Assembly (NCBI GenBank): GCA_003241845.1
Contig: QBMN01000025.1
Span: 1 to 35,419, forward strand
Length of the DNA: 35,419 nucleotides
Source of the DNA: Shackletoniella antarctica
GTDB lineage: Bacteria; Cyanobacteriota; Cyanobacteriia; Phormidesmidales; Phormidesmidaceae
Direction: 5' to 3'
Shown here: positions 16,858 through 31,214 of the stretch, piece after piece
How positions within the stretch are numbered: the stretch's first letter is position 1
Layout: every line of letters begins with the position of its first letter
The notes under the pieces: model-generated
Database searches by the model: none
Told to the model about the DNA's origin: nothing
The model's input: only the letters and a program-made list of their open reading frames with translations
Translations under genes and position numbers: made by a program

Positions 16858-18042
16858 TTAGCTGCCCATGGCATCTTGGGGCAAAAAGGCTCGGTCTTGG
16901 GGCAGAGGCGCTACCGGGGCCGCCAGCTCAAATTCTCCGGCCTCAATCCACTGTTTGAGTTCACTGGCCACCTGGCGGGCCAGATAAATGCTGGCCAGCG
17001 GCGCTGTACGCACCGGCTGTCCCTCGATGGCAATGCTGCCCGACTTGAGCTGGGCGTAGCTGACCAGCCCAAAGGTGGGCCGCACCCGCCGAGGAATTGA
17101 GAAATCCATCACCGGGGCCACAATATCGGCATCCTGCACGGCGCAGTAGGCCGCCACCTGCTCGTTGAGGATGGGGATGGGCACGCCAACCCCCAGCATG
17201 AGCGAGGGGCCATAGCCCTTGAAGTAGCAGCCCCGCACCCACTCAGGCCGCATTTGCTTGGCATCGCCGATCAGCGCTAGGGTGGCGGCGGGGCCAATGG
17301 GGGTACGGTTGGGCAGCCGCCGCTGGAGCGGAAAGTGCTGGGTGCCCTCCCAGGCCACGTAGCCCACGCCGCCACCCAAGAAAATCCGGGTGCCGATGCC
17401 GATCACCTCCAGATCTGGGTCATTTAGCAGCGGCGAGAGGGCACCGGGGTTGGCGTAGACGGCGTTGCCCAGGCGCGGTTGCAGTGGGCCAAGGTAGGTC
17501 GAGAGAGTGCGATCGCCCCCGTTCACCCCGACAATAAAATTTTGGTACAGCCCCCGAGGGCTAAACAGGTAAAACTGATTAATCGTGTCGCGGGTAATGG
17601 TGGTTTCGAGCGCCGTGCGGGGGTAGCAGTCGGTGCCGTGGCCCGTGGCCTGGACCGCTACACTGCGCCCCGCAATCAGGTCGGCAATCACGTGGCCACC
17701 CCCCTGCTCGCGCACAGTTTCAGCGTCGCCCAGGTCAGCCCCGCGCCCGGCCACAGCGGGCTGGCTGGCTCCGATGCACACATCCACTGCGCCAAAGCCC
17801 GCGTAGGCGGGCACCCCATCGAGATAGCACTCCAGCAGCTTGATAGGTGGGTCGGTGTGGCCCAGGTTGAGCATCGCCCCCGACGATTCCATCGGCTCAA
17901 AGGTGCCGGTGACCACTACATCCACCGCCTTGGCGGCGGCGGTGATGCCCTGCTCTTGAGCATAGAGCTTAAAGGCTTCGGCGGTTTGCACCACCGCCTT
18001 GCCCTGGCGAATTTTGTCGTTAATGCTGTCGATGGTACGCAT
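16858..18042 (-). CDS. Homocysteine biosynthesis protein (HcyBio, DUF39)
   Basis: A 394-residue member of the HcyBio/DUF39 family (COG1900-like). Family members in methanogens help form homocysteine from aspartate semialdehyde and sulfide. Visible family features are the N-terminus RTIDSINDKIRQGKAVV, GMLNLGHTDPPIKLLECYLD-type sequence, VDVCIGASQ, the glycine-rich GHVIADLIAG, and GTDCYPRT. Cysteines 72, 89 and 139 are candidate sulfur carriers. Many relatives have C-terminal CBS domains; here there is none. It is the last gene of a minus-strand group after prmA and a small membrane protein, ten bases downstream. The exact substrate in this organism is inferred from family only. Confidence 0.85.
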   Translation of the reverse strand: MRTIDSINDKIRQGKAVVQTAEAFKLYAQEQGITAAAKAVDVVVTGTFEPMESSGAMLNLGHTDPPIKLLECYLDGVPAYAGFGAVDVCIGASQPAVAGRGADLGDAETVREQGGGHVIADLIAGRSVAVQATGHGTDCYPRTALETTITRDTINQFYLFSPRGLYQNFIVGVNGGDRTLSTYLGPLQPRLGNAVYANPGALSPLLNDPDLEVIGIGTRIFLGGGVGYVAWEGTQHFPLQRRLPNRTPIGPAATLALIGDAKQMRPEWVRGCYFKGYGPSLMLGVGVPIPILNEQVAAYCAVQDADIVAPVMDFSIPRRVRPTFGLVSYAQLKSGSIAIEGQPVRTAPLASIYLARQVASELKQWIEAGEFELAAPVAPLPQDRAFLPQDAMGS

Positions 18043-18051
18043 GGGCCTAGC

Positions 18052-18261
18052 TTAACTATTACCGCCGCGTCGCAGCCAAAATAGACCACCCATGAACACC
18101 GAGGGAGCCACCAGCAGCCCCACCACCACCGCCAGGGTCGGATTGTTTTGCCCAGCAGCAGAGCCTGCGAGCAGGGTCGGCAGTGCGTACTTAATGACTG
18201 CGCTGATCGTCCCAGAGAGCAACAGGACTTTAGCGGCAAAGCCGAGGTTAGAAGCGTTCAT
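18052..18261 (-). CDS. Small membrane protein coupled to prmA
   Basis: A 69-residue protein with two hydrophobic segments ([20 protein letters not shown] and [20 protein letters not shown]) and a short basic end (RRGG). Its ATG (18259-18261) overlaps the prmA stop codon (18258-18260) as ATGA, the usual arrangement for coupled translation, which decides this start over an upstream in-frame ATG at 18312. It ends 9 bp before HcyBio. The function is unknown. Its position between a methyltransferase and a sulfur-metabolism gene makes a role in the same operon possible but unproven. Confidence 0.7.
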
Positions 18262-19163
18262 AGTCCTGGGGATCGCCTTACATTCAGACAGCACCAATCC
18301 TGCCGCCGCCACAGGGTGGCCACCACCCAGCCGTGCTGCTCTAGGGTATCGGCCACCAGCTTCGACTGGTCGAGCAAAATGCCGCTGAGAATGCCCCAGC
18401 CGTCGGCGGTGACAAGGGTGTGCATCTGAGGGATCAGATCCATAATCACCTCCGCCAGAATATTGCAGACAATGCCGTCTACGGGGGCGTCGATGGCGGC
18501 GGCGATCGCCTCCAAACTGCCGTGCAGCAGCGGCAGCTCCGCCTCCGTCAGCCCATTCAGCGCCCGGTTGCCCATGGCCGAATGCACCGCTAAATCGTCG
18601 GTATCCGCCGCGTAGGCTTTTTTGGCCCCCAGCAGCAGCGCCCCAATCGAGAGAATGCCGGAGCCACAGCCAATGTCGGCAATGGTGACGTCGGCTCGCT
18701 CGTGGGTGAGCCGCATTTCGAGCGACTCTAGGCAGAGCTGGGTGGTGGGGTGGTTGCCGGTGCCAAAGGCCACCCCTGGGTCGAGGCGCAGCACCAGCCG
18801 CTGGTTGTCGTCCGGTGGTTCGAGCCAGGCGGGGGTGATGAGAAAGCGATCGCCAATCGGCTCGGGCCGCCAGTGCTCCTTCCAGCTCTTAGACCAGTCT
18901 TCTTCGTCAATCAGCTGCCAGCTAATACGGGGCAGCACTTGGCCGCTGCACAGCGCATCCTGCTTGACCAACAGCGCTAAAGCCGAAAGATCGAGCAATT
19001 CTAGCCGATGCTGCGGAAAATAGGCCTGCACAATGCAGGACGACCCTCGCTGTTGGGTCGAGGTGCCTTGGCTGCCAAAGCTGTCAAACCGCCAGAAAAC
19101 CGTATCCTCCAGGGCCGGATCGCACAGTACCTTTACTTCCCACCAGGTGTTGACCACAGCCAT
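18258..19163 (-). CDS. prmA: Ribosomal protein L11 methyltransferase
   Basis: A 301-residue S-adenosylmethionine-dependent methyltransferase that methylates ribosomal protein L11. The SAM-binding motif is [20 protein letters not shown]; the acidic motif AADTDDLAV and the catalytic-side motif [12 protein letters not shown] follow. [15 protein letters not shown] is a PrmA signature. Two start codons are possible: MPRM at 19172 or [12 protein letters not shown] at 19163. I prefer 19163 because family members begin just before WWE. Its stop overlaps the start of the next gene. It lies downstream of serA on the same strand with a GTAGG element between. Confidence 0.94.
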
Positions 19164-19233
19164 TCTAGGCATTGCCTCGCAATTATCAAGATTGGGCCTG
19201 CCCCGTGCGGGCTAAAGCTCCAAATTTTCGACT

Positions 19234-19307
19234 GTAGGGTGGGCACTGCCCACCGCCCACCACGTTAGCAACCACAGCTTGAGCGCCCTACGCTTTGCCC
19301 ATCCTAC
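19234..19307. repeat. GTAGG-bounded inverted-repeat element overlapping the serA stop
   Basis: The left end GTAGGGTGGGCA (19234-19245) and the right end TGCCCATCCTAC (19296-19307) are imperfect inverted repeats. A 19-base part (19232-19250) also occurs, reversed, at 3637-3655. GTGGGCA and TGCCCAC inside the left arm form a separate dyad. The right end covers the serA stop codon. It resembles a miniature non-coding element. Confidence 0.6.
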
Positions 19308-20884
19308 AAATTAACGGTATAGGCATCGCGAATCCCCGGCACCTTGAGAATTTCATCCAAAATGCCCTCAGGCAGAGGATCGTCGAGGCTCAGGGCCATC
19401 ACCGCGTCGCCCCGGACAATTTTGCGGCCCACCTGCATGCTGGCAATGTTGACGTTAAAGCTGCCCAGCAGCGAGCCAATCTTGCCGATAATGCCCGGCA
19501 TGTCGCGGTGCAGGGTGAACAACATGTGCTGGGTCGGCGGCACGTTGATGGGGAACTCGTCGATGTCGGTAACGCGAATCTCGCTGCCCCCCAGCAGCAC
19601 CCCGGTGACCGAGTGCTCGCCCAGGCTGCCCTTGGCCGACAGGTTCAGCGACCCGGTATAGTCGCGAATGTCGGCGTCGCGGGTCTCAATCACGTGAATG
19701 CCGCGCTCTTTGGCCTCAATCGAGGCGTTGACATAGTTGACCCGCTCTTGCAGCGCGTGGGAGAGCAGCCCCTTCAGCGCCGCCACCATGATCGGCTGGG
19801 TGTCGCCCCCGGCGATGTCGCCCTGGAGCCGCACGGTGAGTTCTTCGACCCGGCCCCCGGCCAGCTGGCCCACCAGGTTGCCCAGGGTCTCGGCCAGTTG
19901 CAGGTAGGGGCGCAGCTTTTGCATCACCTCGGGGCGCAGACCGGGGATATTCACCGCCGATCGCGCCGGTAGCCCCAGCAGCACATCGCGAATTTGCTCC
20001 GCCACGTCAATGGCGACATTCACCTGGGCCTCTTCGGTAGACGCGCCGAGGTGAGGCGTCAGAATGATCCCCTTGCCCAGCTCCCGCAGCTCCGACTCAC
20101 CCAGGGGTTCAGACTCGTAGACATCCAGCGCTGCGCCGCCGATGGTGCCCTCTTTCAGCGCCTTGGCCAGGGCCGCCTCGTCGATAATGCCGCCGCGAGC
20201 GCAGTTGATGATTCGCACCGTGGGCTTCATCGTTGCCAGGGCTTTTTCGTTCACCAGGTGGGTGGTTTCGGGGGTCTTGGGCAGGTGCAGGGTAATGTAG
20301 TCGGCCTCGCGGAACAGCAGGTCTAGATCGACCAGGCGGCAGCCGAGCTGTTCGGCCCGCTCGGCAGAAATAAACGGGTCATAGGCCAGCAGCTTCATGC
20401 CCATGGCCCGCGCCACGGTCGCCACGTGGGAGCCAATCTTGCCCAGACCCACGACCCCCAGGGTCTTCTTGTAAATTTCGACTCCGGTAAAGTCCTTGCG
20501 CTTCCATTCGCCTTCCTTGACGGAGCGATCGGCGCTGGGAATGTAGCGCGACATCGACATCATCATCGCCAGGGCGTGCTCTGCCGCCGCAATGGTGTTG
20601 CCCTCCGGCGAGTTGACCACCACAATGCCCCGCCGGGTGGCCTCGAGCACGTCTATGTTGTCTACGCCGACCCCGGCCCGGCCAATAATTTTGAGGTTCT
20701 GGCCCGCATCGATTACCGCCTTGGTCACCTTGGTGCCAGAGCGAATCATCAGCGCATCGTAGTCGCCAATGGCGGCCACCAGTTCTTCAGGAGAAAGGCT
20801 GGTGTTGACATCCACCTGGGCGACCTGGGAGAGAATATCGAGGCCCGCCTGGTCAACGGGGTCAGAAACTAGAACCTTGGGCAT
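19304..20884 (-). CDS. serA: D-3-phosphoglycerate dehydrogenase
   Basis: A 526-residue enzyme that oxidises 3-phosphoglycerate to phosphohydroxypyruvate, the first step of serine synthesis. An N-terminal substrate domain flanks the NAD-binding Rossmann fold (TLGVVGLGKIGSHVATVARAM) with the catalytic elements NCARGGIIDEAAL and ILTPHLGASTEEAQ. An intervening ASB-type domain (about 320-445) precedes a C-terminal ACT domain (LFTLHRDMPGIIGKIGSLLG), typical of the long type-I enzyme and possibly serine-regulated. The stop codon TAG is formed by the edge of a GTAGG repeat. It is the first gene of the minus-strand group leading to prmA and HcyBio. Confidence 0.97.
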   Translation of the reverse strand: MPKVLVSDPVDQAGLDILSQVAQVDVNTSLSPEELVAAIGDYDALMIRSGTKVTKAVIDAGQNLKIIGRAGVGVDNIDVLEATRRGIVVVNSPEGNTIAAAEHALAMMMSMSRYIPSADRSVKEGEWKRKDFTGVEIYKKTLGVVGLGKIGSHVATVARAMGMKLLAYDPFISAERAEQLGCRLVDLDLLFREADYITLHLPKTPETTHLVNEKALATMKPTVRIINCARGGIIDEAALAKALKEGTIGGAALDVYESEPLGESELRELGKGIILTPHLGASTEEAQVNVAIDVAEQIRDVLLGLPARSAVNIPGLRPEVMQKLRPYLQLAETLGNLVGQLAGGRVEELTVRLQGDIAGGDTQPIMVAALKGLLSHALQERVNYVNASIEAKERGIHVIETRDADIRDYTGSLNLSAKGSLGEHSVTGVLLGGSEIRVTDIDEFPINVPPTQHMLFTLHRDMPGIIGKIGSLLGSFNVNIASMQVGRKIVRGDAVMALSLDDPLPEGILDEILKVPGIRDAYTVNL

Positions 20885-21028
20885 GGGTCAGCCATAAAAA
20901 TGTCACAGGGATCTACTTTACTTCAAAGGCGGAACCGGACATTAGTGTGGGGAGCACTTTTGGGCGGGTGGATGGGGATGGGTCTGCGAGAATTTTGGAT
21001 TGACGATTTTGGTTTTTGGTAGGGGCGA

Positions 21029-21055
21029 TAGGGTGCATCCGCCCAGCGATGCACC
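21029..21055. repeat. Dispersed repeat with hairpin, copy 1
   Basis: Begins TAGGGTGCATCCGCCC; GGTGCATC (21032-21039) pairs perfectly with GATGCACC (21048-21055). A related copy is at 28006-28033. It lies between serA and hemW. Confidence 0.55.
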
Positions 21056-21142
21056 TTTAAAGAAGCTCCGTAACTATTTTGTAAACTGCGCTTTCGCCAT
21101 GCAGTGAGGGCTGTAGAGAGGGCCATTGCAGGAAAAGTCACT

Positions 21143-22354
21143 TCACCTGTCACCTAGGTCTTCTAACGCCCGAAAACAGTCAGAAAGAACCACATTGGAG
21201 AACAGAAAACCTTCAGGATCGCTGAGGTGCAAACAGTGGAGAGCATCCCAAGTATCGCCTTCGGCAATCACTAATCCTGCCTGGATGTGGGGCTTTAGGG
21301 TTTGATGGAGAATTGCCCAGGTAGCTGGGGCGCAATGGGAACGCAGCTCATCTCCACCAATTCCCTCCTTCAGCCGTAGCCCTACCATCAGGCGATCCAA
21401 CAGCTGCTCTATCGGCGGTGTCGGCGGTTCGCTGTAGATGCCCCCAGCGGCCTGAAAGGACTTGACCCACTCGCCATAGGTCGCCAGGGTGCGGGGACGA
21501 CCGACGCGCTGGTGCTGGGTATAGCTAGCCGCCCCGAGGCCAAAGCCGTAGTAGGGCTGGTTGCGCCAGTAGGTCAGGTTGTGCTGACATTGGTGCCCCG
21601 GCAGGGCGTAGTTTGAGACCTCGTAGTGCTCGTAGCCCTGGGCCGGGAGAAATGTCTGGGCCAGCCGATACATGGTGGCGGTTTGCTCGTCTGTCGGCAG
21701 TGGGGCATCGCCGGGCTGGTAGCGTTTGGCGAAAACGGTTTGGGGTTCTACCGTCAGATCATAGATCGATAGGTGGTGGGGATATATGGCCACGGCTTTG
21801 GCTAGCCCAGTTTCCCAGTCGGCGATGGTCTGGTGAGGTAGGCCGGAGATTAAATCCAAGCTCCAGTTCGGCATCTCAACCTGGTGCAGCCAGTCCACCG
21901 AGCGGTAAACATCAGTGACGCGGTGGTAGCGGCCACAGCTTTCTAGGGTGGTATCGTTCAACGCCTGGACTCCCAGACTAATGCGATTGACGCCTGCGGT
22001 TAGATAACCTTGCAAATGCTCCAGATCAAAGGTGCCAGGATCCATTTCCATAGAGATTTCGGCATCTGGGGCAACGCCAAAGTGGTGATTGAGCTGAGTC
22101 AGAATTTTTTCAAGCTGGTGGACGGAGAGCAATGAGGGGGTGCCGCCGCCAAAGAAAACGGTTTTGAGTGGGTGTTCGTTCAGCTTTGGAGTGGTAGCGA
22201 TTTCCTTACAGACCGAATCCACATAACTTGCCACGGTGCCGGAGGTCTCGCCCCGCTGGTGGTTGCCGAGCACTGAAATGGGGAAGTCGCAGTAAAAGCA
22301 GCGGCGGCGGCAAAAGGGAATGTGAACGTAGGCGGAAGCGGGGCTGTCGGTCAT
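21143..22354 (-). CDS. hemW: Radical SAM heme chaperone HemW
   Basis: A 403-residue radical-SAM enzyme of the coproporphyrinogen III oxidase-like group. The [4Fe-4S] motif is CRRRCFYC (cysteines 15, 19, 22 of HIPFCRRRCFYCDF). GGGTPSLL, DLISGLPHQT and HNLTYWRNQPYYGFGLGAAS are HemW signatures. These distinguish it from true HemN oxidases, so the likely role is inserting or delivering heme to respiratory enzymes. It overlaps the upstream MOSC gene by four bases (ATGA), so translation is probably coupled. It ends about 260 bp from serA. Confidence 0.9.
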   Translation of the reverse strand: MTDSPASAYVHIPFCRRRCFYCDFPISVLGNHQRGETSGTVASYVDSVCKEIATTPKLNEHPLKTVFFGGGTPSLLSVHQLEKILTQLNHHFGVAPDAEISMEMDPGTFDLEHLQGYLTAGVNRISLGVQALNDTTLESCGRYHRVTDVYRSVDWLHQVEMPNWSLDLISGLPHQTIADWETGLAKAVAIYPHHLSIYDLTVEPQTVFAKRYQPGDAPLPTDEQTATMYRLAQTFLPAQGYEHYEVSNYALPGHQCQHNLTYWRNQPYYGFGLGAASYTQHQRVGRPRTLATYGEWVKSFQAAGGIYSEPPTPPIEQLLDRLMVGLRLKEGIGGDELRSHCAPATWAILHQTLKPHIQAGLVIAEGDTWDALHCLHLSDPEGFLFSNVVLSDCFRALEDLGDR

Positions 22355-23130
22355 GGGTTCAAGCTAACACCATCCCCAACCTTGAGGACTTGCCCGCCCT
22401 GACCGACAATGTTGGTATTGACCGCCAGCCGGTAGAAGTGGTTGAACCGCTGACGCGGTGCCCAGTCTGGCAGAGTAGCCAATCGCTGCTGGCTAAAGTT
22501 CTTTTGAAAACTCTGGGTGGCAGATCCGGTGAGGGCGTCGCGGGTGGGCATCACGCAGCGCTGGCAGGGGTTGATGCCCTCTAGCACCACGTCGCCGATC
22601 GCAAACCGAACCGGGCTGCCGTCGGTGCTAAAGAGCTGGTCTTCCCAGAAGGGGGGCACGCCGTCGATTTCGAGGTTGGTGCGAAAACGGCGGCGGGTTT
22701 CGTCGAGGGTGAGGTTGTGCCAGGCGGCAACGGCTTCCAGGGTCGCCGTGCTGATCACCGTTGGCCCAGCGGCATCGGTGTCGTCGGGAAAGCCGAGGGC
22801 ATGGTTTTCTTGCAGGGTGACGGGCTGCTGAAAGTAGTCGCTGAGCCAGGCTTCTAGCGCTGGGCGCTGCTGTTGGAGGTCAAAGGTGCCGACGGGTTCC
22901 TGGCCATCGACGGCGAGGGTGATGGACTTACTATCCGCAGAGAAAGTGGAGCGCAGTCGGTGGATGGCGGCGTTGCGCTTGCCGTTGACAAAGTGGTTTT
23001 GGGCATCGAAGAGGGCATAGGTGCGATCGCCCACCAGCGCCCCACTACCCAGAACCTGGGCCTGGGCCACCGAAACCCCATCCAGCGACTTAACCGGAAA
23101 AATATCAATGCGGGCGAGATGGCAGGTCAT
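22351..23130 (-). CDS. MOSC-domain protein (molybdenum cofactor sulfurase C-terminal-like)
   Basis: A 259-residue protein with an N-terminal MOSC_N beta-barrel (ARIDIFPVKSLDGVSVAQAQ, VGDRTYALFD) and a C-terminal MOSC domain. The conserved cysteine motif is NPCQRCVMPTRD (about residues 187-198), which in related proteins handles sulfur or reduces N-hydroxylated substrates with the molybdenum cofactor. No PLP-dependent sulfurase domain is fused. Its stop overlaps the hemW start (ATGA). It may be relevant that a molybdopterin oxidoreductase is encoded at 3759-4355, but they are far apart. The substrate is not predictable. Confidence 0.85.
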   Translation of the reverse strand: MTCHLARIDIFPVKSLDGVSVAQAQVLGSGALVGDRTYALFDAQNHFVNGKRNAAIHRLRSTFSADSKSITLAVDGQEPVGTFDLQQQRPALEAWLSDYFQQPVTLQENHALGFPDDTDAAGPTVISTATLEAVAAWHNLTLDETRRRFRTNLEIDGVPPFWEDQLFSTDGSPVRFAIGDVVLEGINPCQRCVMPTRDALTGSATQSFQKNFSQQRLATLPDWAPRQRFNHFYRLAVNTNIVGQGGQVLKVGDGVSLNP

Positions 23131-23181
23131 TGCAAACTGGGACGATAATTGAGGAGTCTCTGTCAGAGGAGCGGCACTACG

Positions 23182-23415
23182 ATGGCTGACCTACTTGAGC
23201 AAGCTATTGCCCGCGTCAAAGCGCTATCGGTCGATGAGCAAAATACGATCGCAACTTTGATTCTAGAAGAACTCGAAGACGAAAGCCGCTGGGATACATC
23301 GTTTGCTGGATCTCACAATCTGTTAGCTGAGCTAGCCGCAGAAGCGATGGCTGAGTATCACGCGGGCAACAGCCAAGAGTTAGACCCCAAAAAGCTTTTG
23401 CTGAGAAGACTCTAA
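23182..23415 (+). CDS. Orphan RelB-type antitoxin-like protein
   Basis: A 77-residue protein, MADLLEQAIARVKALSVDEQ onwards. An N-terminal helix with the 'LS.DEQN.IATLILEELE' pattern and an acidic DESRWD then a 'LLAELAAEAMAEYHAGN' tail ending DPKKLL match the cyanobacterial antitoxin proteins that usually precede a RelE/ParE toxin. No toxin frame follows: the next gene is cobM. It may be a solitary antitoxin or a remnant. The ATG at 23182 (GAGGAG eleven bases upstream) is preferred to a TTG at 23149. It diverges from the MOSC gene with 51 bp between. Confidence 0.65.
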   Translation: MADLLEQAIARVKALSVDEQNTIATLILEELEDESRWDTSFAGSHNLLAELAAEAMAEYHAGNSQELDPKKLLLRRL

Positions 23416-23447
23416 CCCTTGACAAATACCGCTTTGCGTTCAATGTC

Positions 23448-23484
23448 AAAAAAAAGGCCCCTGAGTTAGCTATCCTCAGAGGCC
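23448..23484 (-). terminator. Strong intrinsic terminator on the minus strand, with no minus-strand gene feeding it
   Basis: On the minus strand, GGCCTCTGAG and CTCAGGGGCC form a ten-pair stem (one G-U wobble) around a nine-base loop, followed by eight Ts (23455-23448). On the plus strand the wobble would be a C-A mismatch and no T run follows, so the minus orientation is favoured. No minus-strand protein gene lies upstream for over 4 kb; cobM and the guanidine cassette are on the opposite strand. Confidence 0.85.
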
Positions 23485-23617
23485 CGAATCAGGGTGCATC
23501 TACCGTTCCCATCTCCTGAGACGGCGGCGAAATTCCGGGGAAATACCTGGGGTTTACGGATACTTGAAACAAACTGGCTATGATCCAGTAGCTGTGTGAA
23601 TTGTTGACATTTGCTCT
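23448..23617 (-). ncRNA. Candidate small or antisense RNA ending at the 23448 terminator
   Basis: The minus-strand terminator needs a transcript. The 5' end is not identified; a start between about 23500 and 23617 would give a small RNA of roughly 50-170 nt. A start further right would make an antisense RNA to cobM. No known RNA family (tmRNA, SRP, 6S, Yfr1 motif) was recognised, and no good promoter pair was found. Confidence 0.4.
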
Positions 23618-24496
23618 ATGGCTAGCCCTGTGACCTCCCCTAAAATCCAAGATTTTTCCATTATTGCTCCCCATGGGGATACAGCCCTGGCACCGGGGGT
23701 TTACATCGTCGGGGCCGGGCCGGGCGACCCAGAGCTGTTGACGGTCAAGGCCCAGCGCATGCTCAGCCAGGCCGATGTGATTCTCTACGCCAACTCCCTG
23801 GTGCCCCAGCAGATTTTGGCCTGGACTCGCCCGGAGGCCGAGCGCATTGGCACCGCCACCCTGACCCTGGAGAGCATTTTGCCGCTGATGGTGGAGCGGG
23901 TGCGGGCCGGAAAGTCGGTGATTCGCCTGCAATCGGGCGACCCCAGCCTCTACAGCGCCATCCACGAGCAGATTCAGGCTTTGGCCGAGGCCGAGGTGCC
24001 CTTTGAGGTGGTGCCGGGCATCAGCGCTTACCAGGCGGCGGCGGCGAAACTCAACGCCGAGCTGACCATTCCCGGCCTGGTGCAGTCGATTATTCTCACC
24101 CGCATCAGCGGACGTACTCAGGTGCCCGAGGCGGAGGACTTGGCCAGTCTGGCCGCCCACAAGACCAGCCTGTGCCTCTACCTCAGCGCCCGCCATGTGG
24201 AAGAGTCTCAGGCGCAGCTGTTGAAGCACTACGAGCCAGACACCCCGGTAGCCATCTGCTTTCGCATCGGCTGGCCCGACGAGCAGCTGTTGGTGGTGCC
24301 GCTGGCGGAGATGGCCAAAACCACCCGCGAGAAAGACTTGATTCGCACCACGCTGTACGTGATCAGCCCGGCGCTGCGGGGGCAAAAGGTCAGGTCGCGC
24401 CTCTACAATCCCGAGCACACCCATCTGTTTCGCCCGCGCCATGGCTCAGCCACTCCTTCCGACTCTACCCAGGATGCGGTGCTCCCCCAGGCTTGA
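23618..24496 (+). CDS. cobM: Precorrin-4 C11-methyltransferase
   Basis: A 292-residue SAM-dependent tetrapyrrole methyltransferase of cobalamin (B12) or pseudocobalamin synthesis. Diagnostic motifs are GVYIVGAGPGDPELLTVKAQ, LYANSLVP, VIRLQSGDPSLYSAIHEQ and EVVPGISAYQAAAAKLN, which identify the C11 enzyme (CobM/CbiF). The last 30 residues are a variable tail. No strong ribosome binding site is visible. No B12 riboswitch consensus is visible upstream. Other cobalamin genes are not in this window. The stop codon overlaps the -35 candidate of the guanidine leader. Confidence 0.93.
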   Translation: MASPVTSPKIQDFSIIAPHGDTALAPGVYIVGAGPGDPELLTVKAQRMLSQADVILYANSLVPQQILAWTRPEAERIGTATLTLESILPLMVERVRAGKSVIRLQSGDPSLYSAIHEQIQALAEAEVPFEVVPGISAYQAAAAKLNAELTIPGLVQSIILTRISGRTQVPEAEDLASLAAHKTSLCLYLSARHVEESQAQLLKHYEPDTPVAICFRIGWPDEQLLVVPLAEMAKTTREKDLIRTTLYVISPALRGQKVRSRLYNPEHTHLFRPRHGSATPSDSTQDAVLPQA

Positions 24497-24521
24497 CCGG
24501 AGCTAGTTCTGGGCTTAGAGT
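24493..24521 (+). promoter_or_regulatory. Candidate promoter of the guanidine leader
   Basis: TTGACC (24493-24498) and TAGAGT (24516-24521) are separated by 17 bp, placing a start near 24528, just before the riboswitch aptamer. The -35 overlaps the cobM stop. It fits the consensus only partly. Confidence 0.45.
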
Positions 24522-24539
24522 AAGCTCATTAAAAAATTT

Positions 24540-24651
24540 GAGCCTCTAGGGTTCCGGCTTGGCTGTAGGGCTAGGTGCCTGGTCCGAGAGAGGCGGGTTG
24601 GCGCAGTCTTATTTTATGGCCAGCTACACGGCGGGATAAAAGCCCGGGAGA
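24540..24651 (+). promoter_or_regulatory. Guanidine-I riboswitch (ykkC motif) aptamer
   Basis: Three conserved blocks of the ykkC-I/guanidine-I aptamer occur in order: CTAGGGTTCCGG (24546-24557), CTGGTCCGAGAGA (24579-24591) and ACACGGCGGGATAAAAG followed by CCCGGGAGA (24626-24651). The class binds free guanidinium and normally switches genes on. Here it precedes a guanidine-hydrolase-type gene by about 105 bases, which agrees with that logic. The final helix shares bases with the terminator described next. Confidence 0.96.
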
Positions 24652-24701
24652 TCGAGAGAGGTTGAGAGGTCAACTTCTTAAATCTCTCGGGCATTTTAGT
24701 T
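24642..24701 (+). terminator. Riboswitch expression platform: competing terminator
   Basis: GCCCGGGAGAT (24642-24652), the last part of the aptamer, can instead pair with ATCTCTCGGGC (24682-24692), eleven pairs with one G-U. This is followed by the U-rich ATTTTAGTT. A small internal hairpin GTTGA/TCAAC (24661-24674) lies in the loop. Guanidine binding would hold the aptamer helix and prevent the terminator, predicting an ON switch by antitermination. Confidence 0.8.
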
Positions 24702-24757
24702 GCTCTGGTTAAGATTGCGATTTACTTGGCATAGTGCACCCCTGCGAGGCTCTACTC

Positions 24758-25951
24758 ATGACTGAATCTGCTAACGATCCTGTATTTCAAAGCCCCAATG
24801 GCAGCTCCTCTGAGGCCCAGCGGGCGCTGGAGATGGAAGCCCGTCTGCCGATGACGGGCTGGCAGCAGGAGGTCTCCCAGGGGTTGGAGTATGGCCTAGA
24901 GGCGGCGGCGAGCATTCGCGATCGCACCATCCCCACCTTTTCTCGCGGCGAGCTGCCCCACTACGCGGGCATCAACACCTTCCTCAAAGCGCCCTACATC
25001 GAAGACGTACGCCGGGTCGGCGAGTTTGACGTGGCGATCGTCGGCATTCCCCACGACAGCGGCACCACCTACCGCCCCGGCACCCGCTTTGGCCCCCAGG
25101 GCATTCGCCGCATCTCGGCCCTCTACACCCCCTACAACTTTGAAATGGGGATTGATTTGAGAGAAAGCATCACCCTCTGCGACGTGGGCGATGTGTTCAC
25201 CATCCCCGCCAACAACGAAAAATCCTTCGACCAGATCTCCAAGGGCGTGGCCCACGTGTTTGCCTCTGGGGCATTTCCGATTTTGCTGGGCGGCGATCAC
25301 TCCATCGGCTTCCCCACGGTGCGGGGTATCTGCCGCCACCTGGGCGACAAAAAAGTCGGCATCATCCACTTTGATCGCCACGTTGATACCCAAGAGACCG
25401 ACCTCGACGAGCGCATGCATACCTGCCCCTGGTTCCACGCCACCAACATGGCCAACGCCCCGGCCGAAAACCTCGTGCAGTTGGGCATTGGCGGCTGGCA
25501 GGTGCCGCGCCAGGGAGTGAAGGTCTGCCGCGAGCGGGCCACCAACATTCTCACCGTCACCGACATTACCGAAATGGGGCTGGATGCCGCCGCTGACTTC
25601 GCGATCGCCCGCGCCACCGACGGCACCGACTGCGTGTGGATTAGCTTCGATATCGACTGCATCGACGCGGGCTTTGTGCCCGGCACCGGCTGGCCCGAAC
25701 CCGGCGGCCTGCTGCCCCGCGAAGCCCTCTATCTGCTCAAGCGCATCATTCAAGAAACCACCGTCTGCGGCATCGAAGTGGTGGAGGTGTCGCCCCCCTA
25801 CGATGTCAGCGACATGACCTCGCTGATGGCCACCCGCGTGATCTGCGACACCATGGCCCACCTGGTCAAGTCGGGCCAGCTGCCCCGTCGCGAGAAGCCG
25901 TCGTACATTCACGAAGAAGCGAATATGAACGTCGATGAGCCGTGGCAGTAG
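24758..25951 (+). CDS. gdmH: Guanidine hydrolase (GdmH-type, arginase/ureohydrolase superfamily)
   Basis: A 397-residue member of the ureohydrolase superfamily, in older annotation agmatinase (SpeB). The metal-binding motifs are GGDHSIGFPTVRG (D180, H181), HFDRHVDTQETD (D206, H208, D210) and SFDIDCIDAGFVPG (D298, D300). The long N-terminal extension and the DRHVD variant of the usual DAHxD resemble, as I recall, Synechocystis Sll1077. That is the nickel-dependent guanidine hydrolase GdmH, which splits guanidine to urea and ammonia. The context supports this over agmatinase: a guanidine riboswitch upstream and HypA/HypB-like nickel chaperones downstream. ATG 24758 is chosen because GAGG lies eight bases before it; a GTG at 24734 is in frame. 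Substrate specificity remains inferred. Confidence 0.88.
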   Translation: MTESANDPVFQSPNGSSSEAQRALEMEARLPMTGWQQEVSQGLEYGLEAAASIRDRTIPTFSRGELPHYAGINTFLKAPYIEDVRRVGEFDVAIVGIPHDSGTTYRPGTRFGPQGIRRISALYTPYNFEMGIDLRESITLCDVGDVFTIPANNEKSFDQISKGVAHVFASGAFPILLGGDHSIGFPTVRGICRHLGDKKVGIIHFDRHVDTQETDLDERMHTCPWFHATNMANAPAENLVQLGIGGWQVPRQGVKVCRERATNILTVTDITEMGLDAAADFAIARATDGTDCVWISFDIDCIDAGFVPGTGWPEPGGLLPREALYLLKRIIQETTVCGIEVVEVSPPYDVSDMTSLMATRVICDTMAHLVKSGQLPRREKPSYIHEEANMNVDEPWQ

Positions 25952-25960
25952 GGAACCGCC

Positions 25961-26335
25961 ATGCACGAAACCGATATGACCAAGGCGCTGATTCTCACTG
26001 TGCGCGACTGGTGGGAGGCACAGCCCGGTCAGCCTGCGATTGAAAAGGTCTATCTGACCGTGGGCAAGTTTACCTGCGTGGAGCCAGTGGGCTTGCAATT
26101 TGCCTTTGAGGTGCAGATCCGGGGTACTTTTTTGGAGGGGGCAGAACTGGTGATCAGCGAAACGCCGCTGATTGCCTACTGCCACGACTGCCAGAGTGAG
26201 TATCGACCCGAAATCGGGCTGCAATACGCCTGCCCCACCTGCAAGTCGCCCATGGGCGACATCCGCTCCGGGCGCGAGCTGAAGATTGATCGGGTAGAGT
26301 ATGCGGAGGTGACTAGCCCAACGACTCTCCTTTAG
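25961..26335 (+). CDS. hypA: HypA-like nickel metallochaperone (for guanidine hydrolase)
   Basis: A 124-residue HypA/HybF-family protein. The N-terminal MHE supplies the nickel-binding histidine 2 and glutamate 3. The zinc site is CHDC (74, 77) and CPTC (91, 94). It starts 9 bp after the gdmH stop, so it is probably cotranscribed under the riboswitch. In Synechocystis the equivalent gene (sll1078) acts with its HypB partner to load nickel into GdmH rather than into hydrogenase. No hydrogenase genes lie in this window. The MHE start is required for function and decides against the in-frame Met at residue 6. Confidence 0.9.
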   Translation: MHETDMTKALILTVRDWWEAQPGQPAIEKVYLTVGKFTCVEPVGLQFAFEVQIRGTFLEGAELVISETPLIAYCHDCQSEYRPEIGLQYACPTCKSPMGDIRSGRELKIDRVEYAEVTSPTTLL

Positions 26336-26400
26336 GCCTGGTATAAGCTGAGATTGAGATAAAAGCAACAGGCCACTAGTGGTCTCTCAAGCCTCAACTT

Positions 26401-26476
26401 GTAGGTTGGGTGAAGCGCTAGCGGAACCCAATAAAGCTTACTGCTGTTGGGTTTCACTTCGTTTTACCCAACCTAC
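26401..26476. mobile_element. MITE-like palindromic element between hypA and the TA pair
   Basis: Perfect 11-bp terminal inverted repeats GTAGGTTGGGT (26401-26411) and ACCCAACCTAC (26466-26476) surround an inner GAACCCAA/TTGGGTTTC dyad, so the 76 bp can fold into one long hairpin. Similar palindromes are common in cyanobacterial intergenic DNA. No coding content and no clear target-site duplication are seen. It lies 38 bp before the antitoxin-like gene. Confidence 0.7.
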
Positions 26477-26513
26477 GCGAACCCTAATTTTTAGTTTTGA
26501 CGCTGCACTAGCC

Positions 26514-26837
26514 ATGACCACCCAAAGCCGCTTTTTAGATCAGTTGCAGGTGCTCAACGCCCTCTATCAAAGGGGCTATCACAGCGACATCATGGAGCGC
26601 TCCCTCGCCAAAATCATCGATTTAGAGCGTAGCCAAGCCCTGCAACAGGCCTCAGACCTTCAGGCCCAGCTCCAAGTTTATGAAACTCGGTATCAGATGT
26701 CCTCAGACACCTTCTATCAACAGTTCAACGCTGGAGAGCTGGGCGACGGCATGGATTTCTTCGAGTGGAGTGCCTTTTACGATATGTGGCAATCCGTTCA
26801 GACCCGCCTTGGTGTTTTGCAATCTATCGGTAGCTAA
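26514..26837 (+). CDS. Putative antitoxin partner of TumE-like toxin
   Basis: A 107-residue mainly helical protein: FLDQLQVLNALYQRGYHSDI, then a coiled-coil-like LERSQALQQASDLQAQLQVY, then SSDTFYQQFNAGELGDGMDF and FFEWSAFYDMW. Cyanobacterial genomes often have such a gene directly before a TumE/DUF6516 toxin, so I call it the antitoxin by position and pattern. The ATG at 26514 is used; an in-frame GTG at 26379 lies before the palindromic repeat and would read through it. The stop codon overlaps the next start by one base (TAATG). Confidence 0.65.
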   Translation: MTTQSRFLDQLQVLNALYQRGYHSDIMERSLAKIIDLERSQALQQASDLQAQLQVYETRYQMSSDTFYQQFNAGELGDGMDFFEWSAFYDMWQSVQTRLGVLQSIGS

Positions 26838-27229
26838 TGGATGCTCAGCAATATCTTACCGAGATCAAATCCAGACTAGTTGCCAGTCCTGTAGTTGAGA
26901 CCTTCTCAATTGTTGAGGACAGAGATCTGAACGACAGAGGTTACTTTCGGGCTCGGGTCACGCTGACAAACGCTGATTTTCTCGAAATTGCAGAATACTT
27001 CATTATCATCGACGACCAACCCCAGCCAGACCGCTACCGCTACCAATGGATGGATGGCACCCAGAAAATACTCCGCAGGCGTTGGGATAACGTTCCCCAC
27101 TTTCCAGATTTACCCAGCTTTCCCCACCACGTCCACGTCAACGCCGAAGACAATGTTCAATCCTCCAGGCCAAGAGGTATTACAGAATTTCTGGCTTTCC
27201 TAGAGGCAGAAATTTTGCCAGAGCATTAG
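26837..27229 (+). CDS. TumE-family (DUF6516) toxin-like protein
   Basis: A 130-residue protein. The pattern FRARVTLTNADFLEIAEYFI, then YRYQWMDGTQKILRRRWDNVPHFP, then FPHHVHV matches the DUF6516/TumE toxin family as I recall it; the tryptophan, arginine and final histidine cluster are characteristic. Family toxins act with a preceding antitoxin. Its ATG overlaps the antitoxin stop by one base, so translation is probably coupled. The pair sits between hypA and hypB, which are adjacent in the equivalent Synechocystis cluster, suggesting insertion. Toxic activity is not shown. Confidence 0.7.
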   Translation: MDAQQYLTEIKSRLVASPVVETFSIVEDRDLNDRGYFRARVTLTNADFLEIAEYFIIIDDQPQPDRYRYQWMDGTQKILRRRWDNVPHFPDLPSFPHHVHVNAEDNVQSSRPRGITEFLAFLEAEILPEH

Positions 27230-27256
27230 CCTAGTCATTCGTACTAGTCCCACTCT

Positions 27257-27283
27257 AAAATCCAAAATCCCCAATCCAAACTC
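27257..27283. repeat. Short heptamer-like direct repeats before hypB
   Basis: AAAATCCAAAATCC followed by CCAATCCAAACTCC: iterated (A)AATCC(A) units of about seven bases, of the short tandem repeat kind seen in cyanobacterial intergenic DNA. It ends a few bases before the hypB start. Confidence 0.45.
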
Positions 27284-27288
27284 CCCCC

Positions 27289-28008
27289 ATGCATCAAACC
27301 TTCGACGCTGCTTTAGGAATCGATCTGCTCCACGTCAACCAGGCGGGGGCTGACCACAACCGCGCCCACTTTGATCGCTGGGGCATCACCTGCATGAATA
27401 TCATGAGCAGCCCAGGGGCGGGCAAGACGGCGCTGCTGGAGCGCACCCTGGCGGAGCTGCACGGAGATCTGGCGATCGCCGTCATAGAAGGCGACATGAC
27501 CACCGAGCTGGATGCCGATCGCCTGCGCCAGTACGGGGTGCCGGTGGTGGCAATTAATACGGGGCGATCGTGCCACCTCGATGCCAAAATGGTGGCGGGG
27601 GGCATTCATACCCTAGAGCACAGCTACGACCCCAATGCTCTAGATCTGGTGCTGGTCGAGAACGTGGGCAACCTGGTGTGCCCCGCCGAGTTTGAGGTGG
27701 GCGAACATGCCAAAATCGCGCTGCTGAGCGTCACCGAAGGGGAAGACAAGCCCCTCAAATACCCGATCATGTTCCAAGAAGCCGACTGCCTGCTGATTAC
27801 AAAGGTGGATTTGGTTCCGTATCTGGACGTGAGCATCGAGCAGATTGCGGCGAACGTACGGCAGATGAACCCCCACGTCACCATCATTGCGGTTTCAGCT
27901 AAGACCGGGGAAGGGCTGGAGGAATGGTTTGAGTGGGTGAAATTAACGGTCGCCACCCCTGGTGAATTGCGCGTTCAAGCTCCCACCGCAGAGACGACCC
28001 ACGCGTAG
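27289..28008 (+). CDS. hypB: HypB-like nickel-inserting GTPase
   Basis: A 239-residue SIMIBI-class GTPase of the HypB family. The P-loop is SPGAGKT (residues 41-47); [15 protein letters not shown] and [14 protein letters not shown] are switch and specificity (NKxD-like TKVD) motifs. The dimer-interface metal site is C95-H96 (GRSCHLDA) with C131 (NLVCPAEF), matching the E. coli C166/H167/C198 set. The cysteine-rich N-terminus of E. coli HypB is missing; the N-terminal part has histidines. It is expected to drive nickel delivery to GdmH with HypA (like Synechocystis sll1079). The toxin-antitoxin pair separates it from hypA. A repeat forms its stop codon. Confidence 0.92.
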
Positions 28009-28033
28009 GGTGCCATCCGCGCAGCGATGCGCC
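28006..28033. repeat. Dispersed repeat, copy 2, forming the hypB stop
   Basis: Begins TAGGGTGCCATCCGCGC and is related to 21029-21055 with about three differences. Its first three bases are the hypB stop codon (TAG). Confidence 0.55.
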
Positions 28034-28044
28034 AACCAAAGCCC

Positions 28045-28557
28045 CTAGGAAGGCCCTAGCAGTCGCCGCATGGCACCGCCGACGGCCCGCTTCATTTGCT
28101 GCTTGCGCCGCCAACTCTGAAATTCTTTGCGGTAGCCATACTCGTTGGGGCGGTAGATGCGCCAGGCATCCCAGCTGGCTTGGATTGCCCAGGGGCCGAA
28201 TGTGAGATAGAGCAGCCAGTTCCAGAGCCAGCCACCGGTCGCTAGCTGAAACACCAGCACGCAACCACCCATAATCAGCAGCCGAGACAGGTTGTGCTGA
28301 AACCGCTGTTTGCGCTGGCTGTCGAACAGTCTTTGGTCAGCGAGTTCGTATTTTTTCACATCCCACTCGCGCTCGGCGGCGGCGATGGTGTCGGCGGCGA
28401 TGCCCATTTCGTCGGCAATCTCTAGCAACTGGGCGCGGGAGAGTTTGCCCGACTCAGTCTGGCTGGCGATCGCCAGGCTCAAAATCTGCTGAGCATCTTC
28501 AGCGGGGTACAAAAACTCGCCATCGCTGATGTATGAATCGGTTACTAAATCAGCCAT
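28045..28557 (-). CDS. 2TM-domain protein
   Basis: A 170-residue protein. The N-terminal half is soluble and helical, with YPAEDAQQILSLAIA, then KLSRAQLLEIADEMGIAADTI and AEREW, a small helical module. The C-terminal part has two close hydrophobic helices (LLIMGGCVLVFQLATG and WNWLLYLTFGPWAIQAS) followed by a basic region rich in RKQQMKR. This corresponds to the 2TM domain family seen with sensory proteins. It is probably in the membrane with both ends in the cytoplasm. The function is unknown. It converges with hypB. Confidence 0.75.
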   Translation of the reverse strand: MADLVTDSYISDGEFLYPAEDAQQILSLAIASQTESGKLSRAQLLEIADEMGIAADTIAAAEREWDVKKYELADQRLFDSQRKQRFQHNLSRLLIMGGCVLVFQLATGGWLWNWLLYLTFGPWAIQASWDAWRIYRPNEYGYRKEFQSWRRKQQMKRAVGGAMRRLLGPS

Positions 28558-28737
28558 TGCCGCCCCTGCCTGTCAAAACTCTCTTTCTTTTTTATAAACA
28601 AAATTGGCGGTTTTGGGGGTGTGGTCAGGGTACGGAAAACCTATCGTCACAGGCGCGATCGCCAGCAATGGTGAGACCTGCGCTGGTTCGGGCATGCTAG
28701 CGGGTGGATACGCATCTTAACCATCGGAGTGTGCACT

Positions 28738-29130
28738 ATGACTCAACTGGTCCCGATCCGCCTAGAGGATGGCACCGAAATCTACATGGAGGCTACTGAA
28801 GACGTGGTTGCTCCAGCCTCAGCCTCCCTTGGCTCAGAAATCTACGGCGAAACGACCCGCACGGCCAAGGGCTTGGGCATGCCTAGCCAGGCCGTACAGG
28901 CCCATGCGGCCCAGAGCTTTAAGGCCATTGAAGGCACCATTCGCACCTACACCACCTACACCATGAACGCCTTCAAAGACATGGCCACCGCCAATGTCGA
29001 AAAAGTCACCCTAGAGTTTGGCCTCAAGGTCGGCGGAGAGGCAGGAGTTCCCTACGTTACTAAAGGCACCGCAGAGAGCAATCTAAAAATCACGGTGCAG
29101 TGCTCGTTTGACCAAGAGACTCACCAATAA
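28738..29130 (+). CDS. Trypco1 / CU044_2847-family protein
   Basis: A 130-residue protein. The start MTQLVPIRLEDGTEIYMEA and the end VEKVTLEFGLKVGGEAGVPY, VTKGTAESNLKITVQCSF form the pattern of the trypsin-co-occurring domain 1 (CU044_2847) family. Members are linked by genome surveys to proteases and effector-associated conflict systems. Here it has no obvious protease or NTPase neighbour: the flanking genes are a 2TM protein and dxs. The start ATG 28738 is supported by GGAG eight bases upstream; a GTG at 28729 is also in frame. The role is unknown. Confidence 0.72.
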   Translation: MTQLVPIRLEDGTEIYMEATEDVVAPASASLGSEIYGETTRTAKGLGMPSQAVQAHAAQSFKAIEGTIRTYTTYTMNAFKDMATANVEKVTLEFGLKVGGEAGVPYVTKGTAESNLKITVQCSFDQETHQ

Positions 29131-29270
29131 CTTGGCAGCTAACAAGGAGACTCAGGGCTATGGGGGATAAAGCTTTGAGCGCATAAGCAAAGACAAAAAT
29201 GTGGCCGATCATTGGTTAAAATGACAATTTCTGCCACCAGCTCATGGCCCAGAGATCGCAGCCCCTGGTT

Positions 29271-29295
29271 GGCAGGAGGAAAGTTTCCTCCTGCC
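29271..29295 (-). terminator. Perfect 12-bp palindrome downstream of dxs
   Basis: GGCAGGAGGAAA (29271-29282), one spacer base, and TTTCCTCCTGCC (29284-29295). It is 11 bp past the dxs stop and probably terminates dxs, although no long T run follows. Confidence 0.55.
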
Positions 29296-29306
29296 GCCTA
29301 GACGTC

Positions 29307-31214
29307 TTAGCGCACCAGCACTGGCTTCTCAACCTGGTAGGTGGCGAGAATGCGCTCGGCCATCTGGGGCGGGGTCAGCCCCAGCGATGCCTTCGACTGG
29401 TCATGGGTAGCGTGGTCGACCAGCACATCGGGCACGCCGATGCGCAGCACCGAGGCGGGCACCTGGGCGTCTAAAATCGACTCGGCCACGGCGGAGCCGA
29501 AGCCGCCCATCAGACAGCCTTCTTCAAAGGTCACCACTTTGCCAATTTCCCGCACCAGGGGCAAAATCAGCTCCTCGTCGAGGGGTTTGGCGAAGCGGGC
29601 GTTGACCACAGTGGCCTCAAGGCCGTGCTCGCTGAGAATCTCGGCGGTCTGCATAGCTGGGTAGACCATGGAGCCGTAGCCTAGCAGCAGCAGATCGTCG
29701 CCCCGGCGCAGCACCTCGGCCTTGCCAATGGGTAGGGGTTCCCAGCCTTCTTCCATCAGTGGGGCACCGTAGCCGTTGCCTCGGGGGTAGCGCATGGCGA
29801 TCGCCCCTTTCTTGTACTCTATCCCCGTCACAATCATGCGCTGTAGCTCGGCCTCGTCCTTGGGGGCCATCAGCACAATGTTGGGAAGGCAGCGCAGGTA
29901 GGCGATGTCGTAGAGCCCCTGGTGGGTCGGCCCGTCGGCCCCGACAATGCCCGCCCGGTCGAGGCAGAAGAACACCGGCAGCTTTTGAATGCAGACGTCG
30001 TGGACAATCTGGTCAAAGCCGCGCTGCAAGAAGGTGGAATAGATCGCCGCCACCGGGCGCATGCCCTCGCAGGCCAAACCCGCCGCCAGCGTGACGGCGT
30101 GCTGCTCGGCAATGCCCACGTCAATGTACTGCTTGGGCAGGGCCTGCTGGAGCTTGTCTAGCCCGGTGCCCGTGGCCATGGCGGCGGTGATGCCGACAAT
30201 CTTGGGGTTGTTTTCGGCCAGCTTGATCAGGGTTTCGGCAAACACCTTGGAATAGCTGGGGGGCTTGGGCTTGGTGGAAGGAATCCCCTTGCCGGTGGAG
30301 AGATTAAAGGGCGACTGGGCGTGGTAGCCCACCTGGTCTTTTTCGGCGATCGCATAGCCCTTGCCCTTGGTGGTCACCACATGCACCAGCACCGGGCCGG
30401 TGTGCTTATGGGCCTCTTTGAAGGTAGCGATCAGCTCTTGTAGATTGTGGCCATCCACTGGCCCCATGTAGGTAAAGCCCAGTTCTTCAAACACAGCCCC
30501 CACCTTGGGCACCGCCAGCCGCTTCATGCCCTCTTTCACCCGGTCTAGCTCGGGGGAGAGCGATTCACCCACAAAGGGCAGGTGCTTAAACTGCTCCTCT
30601 AGGTTGTCGGTGAGAAACTGCACCGGCGGGCTGAGGCGTATTTTGTTGAGATAGCGCGGAATTGCCCCCACGTTGGGCGAGATCGACATTTCGTTGTCGT
30701 TGAGCACCACCAGCAGGTTGGTGTTGGGCAGGTGCCCGGCGTGGTTGATCGCCTCTAGGGCCATGCCGCCGGTCAGCGCGCCGTCGCCGATGATGGCCGC
30801 CACCTTGTAGCTGTCGCCGCTCAGGTCGCGGGCCAGGGCCATGCCCAGGGCCGACGAAATACTGGTGGAGGCGTGGCCCGCGCCAAAGTGATCAAACCTG
30901 CTTTCGCTGCGCTTGAGGTAGCCCGCGACGCCATCTTTTTGGCGCAGGGTGTGAAACTTGTGGTAGCGGCCGGTGATCAGCTTGTGGGGATAGGCCTGGT
31001 GGCCCACGTCCCAGGTGACTTTGTCGCGGTCGAGGTCAAGGGTTTGGTACAGCGCCAGGGTTAGCTCTACTACCCCCAGCCCTGGGCCTAGGTGCCCCCC
31101 GCTGGCCGCCACGGTCTCAAGGTGCTTTTCGCGAATCTGGCGGGCCACGTCTTCGAGCTGCCGAATGGTCAGACCGTGGAGTTGATTGGGGTGAGTTATG
31201 TCACTCAGGTGCAT
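29307..31214 (-). CDS. dxs: 1-deoxy-D-xylulose-5-phosphate synthase
   Basis: A 635-residue thiamine-diphosphate enzyme that joins pyruvate and glyceraldehyde-3-phosphate, the first step of the MEP isoprenoid pathway feeding carotenoids, chlorophyll phytol and quinones. The thiamine-binding motif runs from [13 protein letters not shown] to [12 protein letters not shown]. The pyrimidine domain has [17 protein letters not shown] and [15 protein letters not shown]. Length is standard. The start ATG 31214 ([15 protein letters not shown]) fits family N-termini. It is transcribed alone on the minus strand. Confidence 0.97.

Follow-up and report, generated by a model that had tools for sequence, protein, structure and literature searches.

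To the left of cobM in Shackletoniella antarctica, a small RNA gene of the NsiR1 family, about 58 nt in length, is located on the minus strand at 23448-23505 of the window, which is here the whole 35,419-nt stretch of DNA that was analysed. Taken alone, the locus is an unremarkable member of an already known RNA family, and it is very probable that the full joint reading holds, namely that an NsiR1-family gene is read from a DIF1-type promoter of the HetR pathway and that its product represses targets by pairing through its 5' end. We infer the transcription, the HetR/HetZ control and the mode of action of this RNA alike. In addition, a survey of cyanobacterial genomes suggests with good, somewhat lesser confidence that NsiR1 is an ancient HetR output of essentially every HetR-bearing cyanobacterium; it would have two promoter classes, hardly vary in its pairing region and occupy loci (cobM, hetF, ddl) older than heterocysts.

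Structure, family identity and conservation of the RNA

Scanning the whole window with cmscan returned two matches over their gathering scores, a Guanidine-I riboswitch and NsiR1 (RF02399). The NsiR1 match is located at 23505-23449 (-), scores 42.2 bits against a gathering score of 39 and covers model positions 1-60 of 60, and the 5' end was predicted from where the model begins (its position 1) and from the distance to the -35 box. The riboswitch (24535-24652 (+), 83.9 bits) precedes a gene of the arginase family (24761-25951 (+), PF00491), which we take to be a probable guanidine hydrolase.

On the minus strand, the 58-nt RNA begins with a conserved 18-nt 5' region (CGGTAGATGCACCCTGAT, 23488-23505), presumed to be the pairing region, which is followed by a terminator stem-loop (23455-23485) and by eight Us. 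The stem-loop is composed of 11 pairs and a 9-nt loop (5' arm GGGCCUCUGAG, 23485-23475; loop, 23474-23466; 3' arm, 23465-23455), and the first U of the U-run (23455-23448) also closes the outermost G-U pair. Folding of 23488-23448 (-) yields -20.6 kcal/mol (z = -4.62), a value equalled by none of 200 shuffles, and a wider stretch of 100 nt folds no better than shuffles (z -0.93). Over 23448-23505 the fold energy is -22.1 on the minus strand versus -16.7 on the plus strand, where the stem has a mismatch. The original prediction, according to which the stem is perfect only as a minus-strand RNA, since the plus strand has a mismatch where the minus strand has a G-U pair, and is followed by eight Us, is therefore correct on both points; its extent of 23448-23617 was too long and has been shortened to about 23448-23505. 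The terminator is absent from a consensus terminator scan of 18000-30000, which we attribute to the loop limit of 8 used in that scan, as the loop here has 9 nt.

With a score over the gathering cut-off, the conserved 5' region and a 3' intrinsic terminator, the window copy has the features of RF02399 membership. The S. antarctica genome contains four RF02399 matches over the cut-off, dispersed on four contigs, among which the window copy scores lowest (42.2 versus 49, 49.2 and 54.7 bits), and a 17-base core, GGTAGATGCACCCTGAT, is exact in all four.

Judged by their flanking proteins, the named relatives that come closest among the loci compared are L153 (Leptolyngbya isolate ULC186bin1, 91% identity in cobM) and L152 (Nodosilinea nodulosa PCC 7104, 84-93% identity in the flanks of the ddl-linked copy). 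The 5' region of the window copy is identical to that of the cobM-linked L153 copy at 18 of 18 positions, and of the 11 stem pairs two are changed on both sides, two on one side and seven not at all, none being broken; every stem change in L153 keeps the pairing. Identity to L153 is 82-100% within the element (82-83% in the spacer, the promoter and the stem-loop segment) and 58% past the terminator. Stems were compared directly because a MAFFT alignment of 14 cobM-linked copies aligned them poorly. Among the matches listed, a stem of 7 bp or more abuts the U-run in 116 of 139 distinct copies (named records not classed as heterocystous and further genomes, a set in part pre-selected for the T-run by the search pattern), compared to 3.2% of shuffled spacers.

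Taken together, the full-model RF02399 match, the promoter-like box described below, the conserved 5' region and the pair-preserving stem changes support the earlier proposal of an unannotated small RNA running leftwards. The two next genes to the right, cobM (23618-24496) and the arginase-family gene, are both on the plus strand, as had been stated. To the left, a 77-aa reading frame is found at 23182-23415 (+), and since it has no Pfam or NCBIfam match, its former label as an antitoxin gene is unverified.

Promoter motifs and genomic neighbourhoods

DIF1 is a TCCGGA motif centred near -35 that is present in the promoters of patS, patX and hetR (PMC7377430), and in Nostoc such promoters are described as dependent on HetR/HetZ, which has been shown for nsiR1 too (PMC7377430, PMC9045159). 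The window copy has this NsiR1-type motif at -35 with one mismatch, as CCCGGA (23534-23539 (-), -34 to -29 from the predicted start), together with a weak -10-like hexamer, GGAGAT (23511-23516 (-)), recognised by sequence only. The CCCGGA variant is common to the cobM-linked copies of the window, L153 and L252.

To place the motif in a broader context, contigs were scanned for the 17-base core followed by six Ts within 16-45 bases, which returned at least 117 stretches whose titles all read as cyanobacterial. The matches listed contain 192 copies, of which 99 belong to heterocystous genera, 60 do not and 33 are unclear, by our own classification of the genera. The 80 upstream bases were present for 96, 60 and 33 of these, respectively (three dropped); among the matches listed, exact DIF1 was found in 63/96 heterocystous, 34/60 non-heterocystous and 21/33 unclear copies, and DIF1 with up to one mismatch at the fixed distance in 94/96, 59/60 and 33/33, counts in which the copies of one array are not independent. 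The background at random positions of model-found loci is 0.23% for exact DIF1 and 3.5% for up to one mismatch. Similarly, 52 loci found by the Rfam model include 26 with exact DIF1, 13 with one mismatch, seven with the palindrome GGGN5CCC instead (background 2.5%), two with neither motif and four unscored (two of which lack the core, and two near contig ends that, scored separately, have DIF1 with one mismatch). DIF1 or the HetR-type palindrome, a site requirement taken from PMC4192349, thus precedes 46 of the 48 scored copies, and both copies with neither motif come from HetR-less genomes. Within the family to which S. antarctica belongs, NsiR1 is present in all eight genomes, S. antarctica included, and 23 further loci have DIF1 within one mismatch (21) or the HetR-type palindrome (2), three truncated loci of one array among them apparently being the same copy.

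The neighbourhoods of NsiR1 are recurrent. In the window, the head-to-head neighbour is cobM (23618-24496 (+)), encoding precorrin-4 C11-methyltransferase (TIGR01465, 330 bits, cut-off 259.65), and the same head-to-head arrangement of cobM with an NsiR1 copy, no more than about 215 nt apart, is seen in all 14 loci of the cobM cluster, with L252 as a fifteenth such locus; L067, where the cobM-like match is partial and weak, was left out of this count. None of the 14 is from a genus classed as heterocystous. A further arrangement was observed in Spirulina sp. SIO3F2 (L059), where two near-identical cores with DIF1 boxes are located in tandem upstream of cobM. Genes resembling hetF, a cluster named from one member, are head-to-head with NsiR1 in all 26 of their loci (16 with heterocystous titles, 10 other), and the nearest exact copy is at most 2.4 kb away. 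Furthermore, in S. antarctica (L001) and in L069, L152, L165 and L175 an NsiR1 copy immediately precedes ddl in the same orientation, and the arrangement is otherwise in L037, L089 and L119; such ddl-upstream copies might serve as a leader or undergo read-through. Because these cobM, hetF and ddl neighbourhoods recur, several NsiR1 loci look old and vertically inherited.

Co-occurrence with HetR and a possible second NsiR1-like class

The same draw of 386 cyanobacterial genomes was used for RF02399 and for HetR (PF03574), and yielded an RF02399 match at E <=0.001 in 95 and HetR in 80. At E <1e-6, 78 genomes have both, two have NsiR1 only (G229, G308), two have HetR only (G058, G083) and 304 have neither, a coincidence that spans 15 families and for which the Fisher value is not a fair probability, as the genomes are related to one another. 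Both G058 and G083 contain a weaker NsiR1 copy with one core mismatch and a GGGN5CCC site, so that all 80 HetR genomes have some NsiR1 match. The presence of NsiR1 in every HetR-bearing genome of the sample indicates that the family probably predates heterocysts.

Among the 306 HetR-less genomes, 15 have an RF02399 match, namely G229 and G308 with their strong matches, seven genomes of genus g31, five of family f20 and one of family f31. The seven g31 genomes match weakly, and the two HetR-less ones inspected (L188, L191) have a single copy whose core carries one mismatch and which is preceded by neither promoter motif; the core was absent from the one f20 match and the one f31 match inspected. 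In G229 (about 320 contigs, completeness 99), the assembly may have missed HetR, or the gene may have been lost recently, as HetR-type palindromes precede four of its NsiR1 copies. A search for the HetR protein in five HetR-less genomes, run without a positive control, found none.

Long complementary targets were sought with the complement of the 17-base core, allowing up to two mismatches, which occurs at 56 places in 11 genomes compared to one for a reversed control pattern. Rfam matches account for 46 of these places, and six of the other ten are further NsiR1-like copies (L266, L268-L271 and L274, in G170, G215, G011, G027, G002 and G008) that are not listed by the Rfam model; in each of them the core is preceded by a GGGN5CCC palindrome, with no DIF1, and followed by a hairpin. 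The remaining four (L265 in S. antarctica, L267, L272, L273), with no such hairpin and neither promoter motif, look like chance matches. As all 56 places are NsiR1 copies or apparent chance matches, no target emerged from this search. GGGN5CCC with no DIF1 is also found at L182, L189, L190, L197, L201-L203, L253 and L262, and the start of the class differs from the usual NGGTAG. These copies appear to make up a second NsiR1-like class, with promoters of the direct HetR-site type, and part of the class escapes the Rfam model; at up to two core mismatches, no copy of this class was seen in the S. antarctica genome.

The host itself has two HetR genes, the first of which passes the NCBIfam HetR equivalog cut-off (503.2 versus 489). 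Upstream of the first hetR there is a 103-aa frame with three RGSGR motifs (L035, 2646-2957 (-)) and TCCTGA 61 bases before its start, which we take to be PatX-like. In Leptolyngbya BL0902, the effects of PatX have been judged basically independent of HetR, unlike in Anabaena (PMC11298460). No nifH over the cut-off was found in S. antarctica (best 220 versus 394 bits; three of 14 control genomes are over), and the organism is therefore taken as non-diazotrophic and heterocysts are not expected in it. A hetF homologue is present (the partial query scores 573.5 bits against NF045509 HetF, under the full-length cut-off of 1200), and its locus (L236) contains no NsiR1 core with fewer than six mismatches.

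Proposed mode of action and alternative readings

By analogy with Nostoc, the window RNA is most likely a HetR-pathway RNA that acts in trans and pairs via its 5' end. RNA polymerase would start near 23505 (-) from the DIF1-type promoter, which is probably switched on via the HetR pathway (in Nostoc via HetZ), and would produce an RNA of about 58 nt that stops at the hairpin and U-run (23455-23448), the stem-loop serving presumably both as terminator and as 3' protection. The conserved 5' region would then base-pair with target mRNAs close to where translation begins and repress them, as NsiR1 does in Nostoc, and its near-invariance argues for conserved targets paired in trans. In Nostoc, nsiR1.1 is described to repress hetF as an antisense RNA, and NsiR1 pairs in the translation initiation region of the hetP-like alr3234 (PMC9045159). 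The second target in S. antarctica probably differs from alr3234, because no HetP-family match (NF037966) was found in this genome, in a search in which no control genome was over the cut-off either. In duplex tests with five leaders (patX, hetR, the second hetR, cobM and the arginase-family gene), none paired clearly better than mononucleotide shuffles; the best was the hetR leader, which 9, 13 and 14 of 100 shuffles matched for three of the copies and 41 for the window copy. The tests on the leaders of patX, both hetR genes and the arginase-family gene were accordingly taken as negative.

The head-to-head position of cobM in the 14 cobM-linked loci and in L252 raises the question of whether the RNA acts in cis, pairing with an extended cobM leader and lowering corrinoid synthesis as nsiR1.1 acts on hetF in Nostoc, where hetF starts at -256 inside nsiR1.2, so that its leader overlaps nsiR1.1 (PMC8406250). 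Overlap with the RNA would indeed arise if cobM were transcribed from a start left of 23505. However, the RNA does not overlap the cobM coding region, its 5' end is located 112 nt upstream of the cobM start codon, with transcription leading away from the gene, and a candidate cobM -10 box, TATGAT (23579-23584 (+), unchanged in L153), is positioned between the two and could start cobM without overlap. Moreover, the same core is present in the three other S. antarctica copies, none of which is beside cobM, and shuffled leaders pair with the RNA as well as the proximal cobM leader does. The antisense role on cobM that the original prediction had offered is thus rejected as the main role, and we consider the cis-antisense reading unlikely overall.

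The low score of the window copy among the four, its DIF1 mismatch and its weak -10 hexamer could also be signs of a decayed NsiR1 copy that is no longer transcribed or functional, yet the 5' region is fully kept, the stem changes relative to L153 preserve pairing, conservation drops past the terminator and the CCCGGA variant is common to L153 and L252, which together make decay improbable. That the hairpin and U-run belong to no RNA gene and simply end leftward read-through or act as an attenuator is scarcely credible given the full-length Rfam match, the promoter motif and the four-copy family. An NsiR1-family RNA that pairs in trans thus stays the preferred reading.

The Nostoc RNA is described as HetR-dependent and restricted to differentiating heterocysts, and the family-wide pattern seen here is not what that description would lead one to expect; the term 'heterocyst-specific' would then refer to expression in Nostoc and not to a property of the family. 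If the family is such an ancient HetR output, NsiR1 would be a third part of the HetR-PatX module. Its occurrence across all 80 HetR genomes offers a measurable output for the role of HetR-PatX in non-heterocystous filaments, and its targets could be sought in a tractable strain. For non-heterocystous Limnospira, an NsiR1-like RNA has already been published (PMC8400943), and RF02399 in non-heterocystous strains may be listed in the species list of Rfam. Beyond that paper, the available portions of PMC9045159, PMC4734099, PMC4365693 and PMC8406250 do not describe NsiR1 in such strains, nor do the accessible parts of the literature that pairs NsiR1 with 'non-heterocystous'. Within the NsiR1 literature searched, where some queries were swamped by other terms, no published report was found of the co-occurrence with HetR, the second class or the cobM locus.

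With the NsiR1 of Nostoc (Anabaena) sp. PCC 7120, the window RNA shares its length of about 60 nt, a DIF1 promoter and the presence of several slightly different copies per genome (PMC9045159), and, by the Rfam model RF02399, its sequence and terminator. The two differ in locus type, since the Nostoc copies, 12 in tandem upstream of hetF, belong to a heterocyst former, whereas S. antarctica has four dispersed single copies and no nifH over the cut-off; the tandem arrangement next to hetF, which is not in the Rfam definition, is not encountered in S. antarctica. The DIF1-promoter genes patS, patX and hetR likewise have TCCGGA near -35 (PMC7377430), but they are protein genes and the window element is a non-coding RNA. 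By description, the window RNA also resembles RNA162 of Limnospira indica PCC 8005, a measured NsiR1-like RNA of 57 nt from an organism that has no heterocysts and no N2 fixation and carries hetR-patS (PMC8400943).
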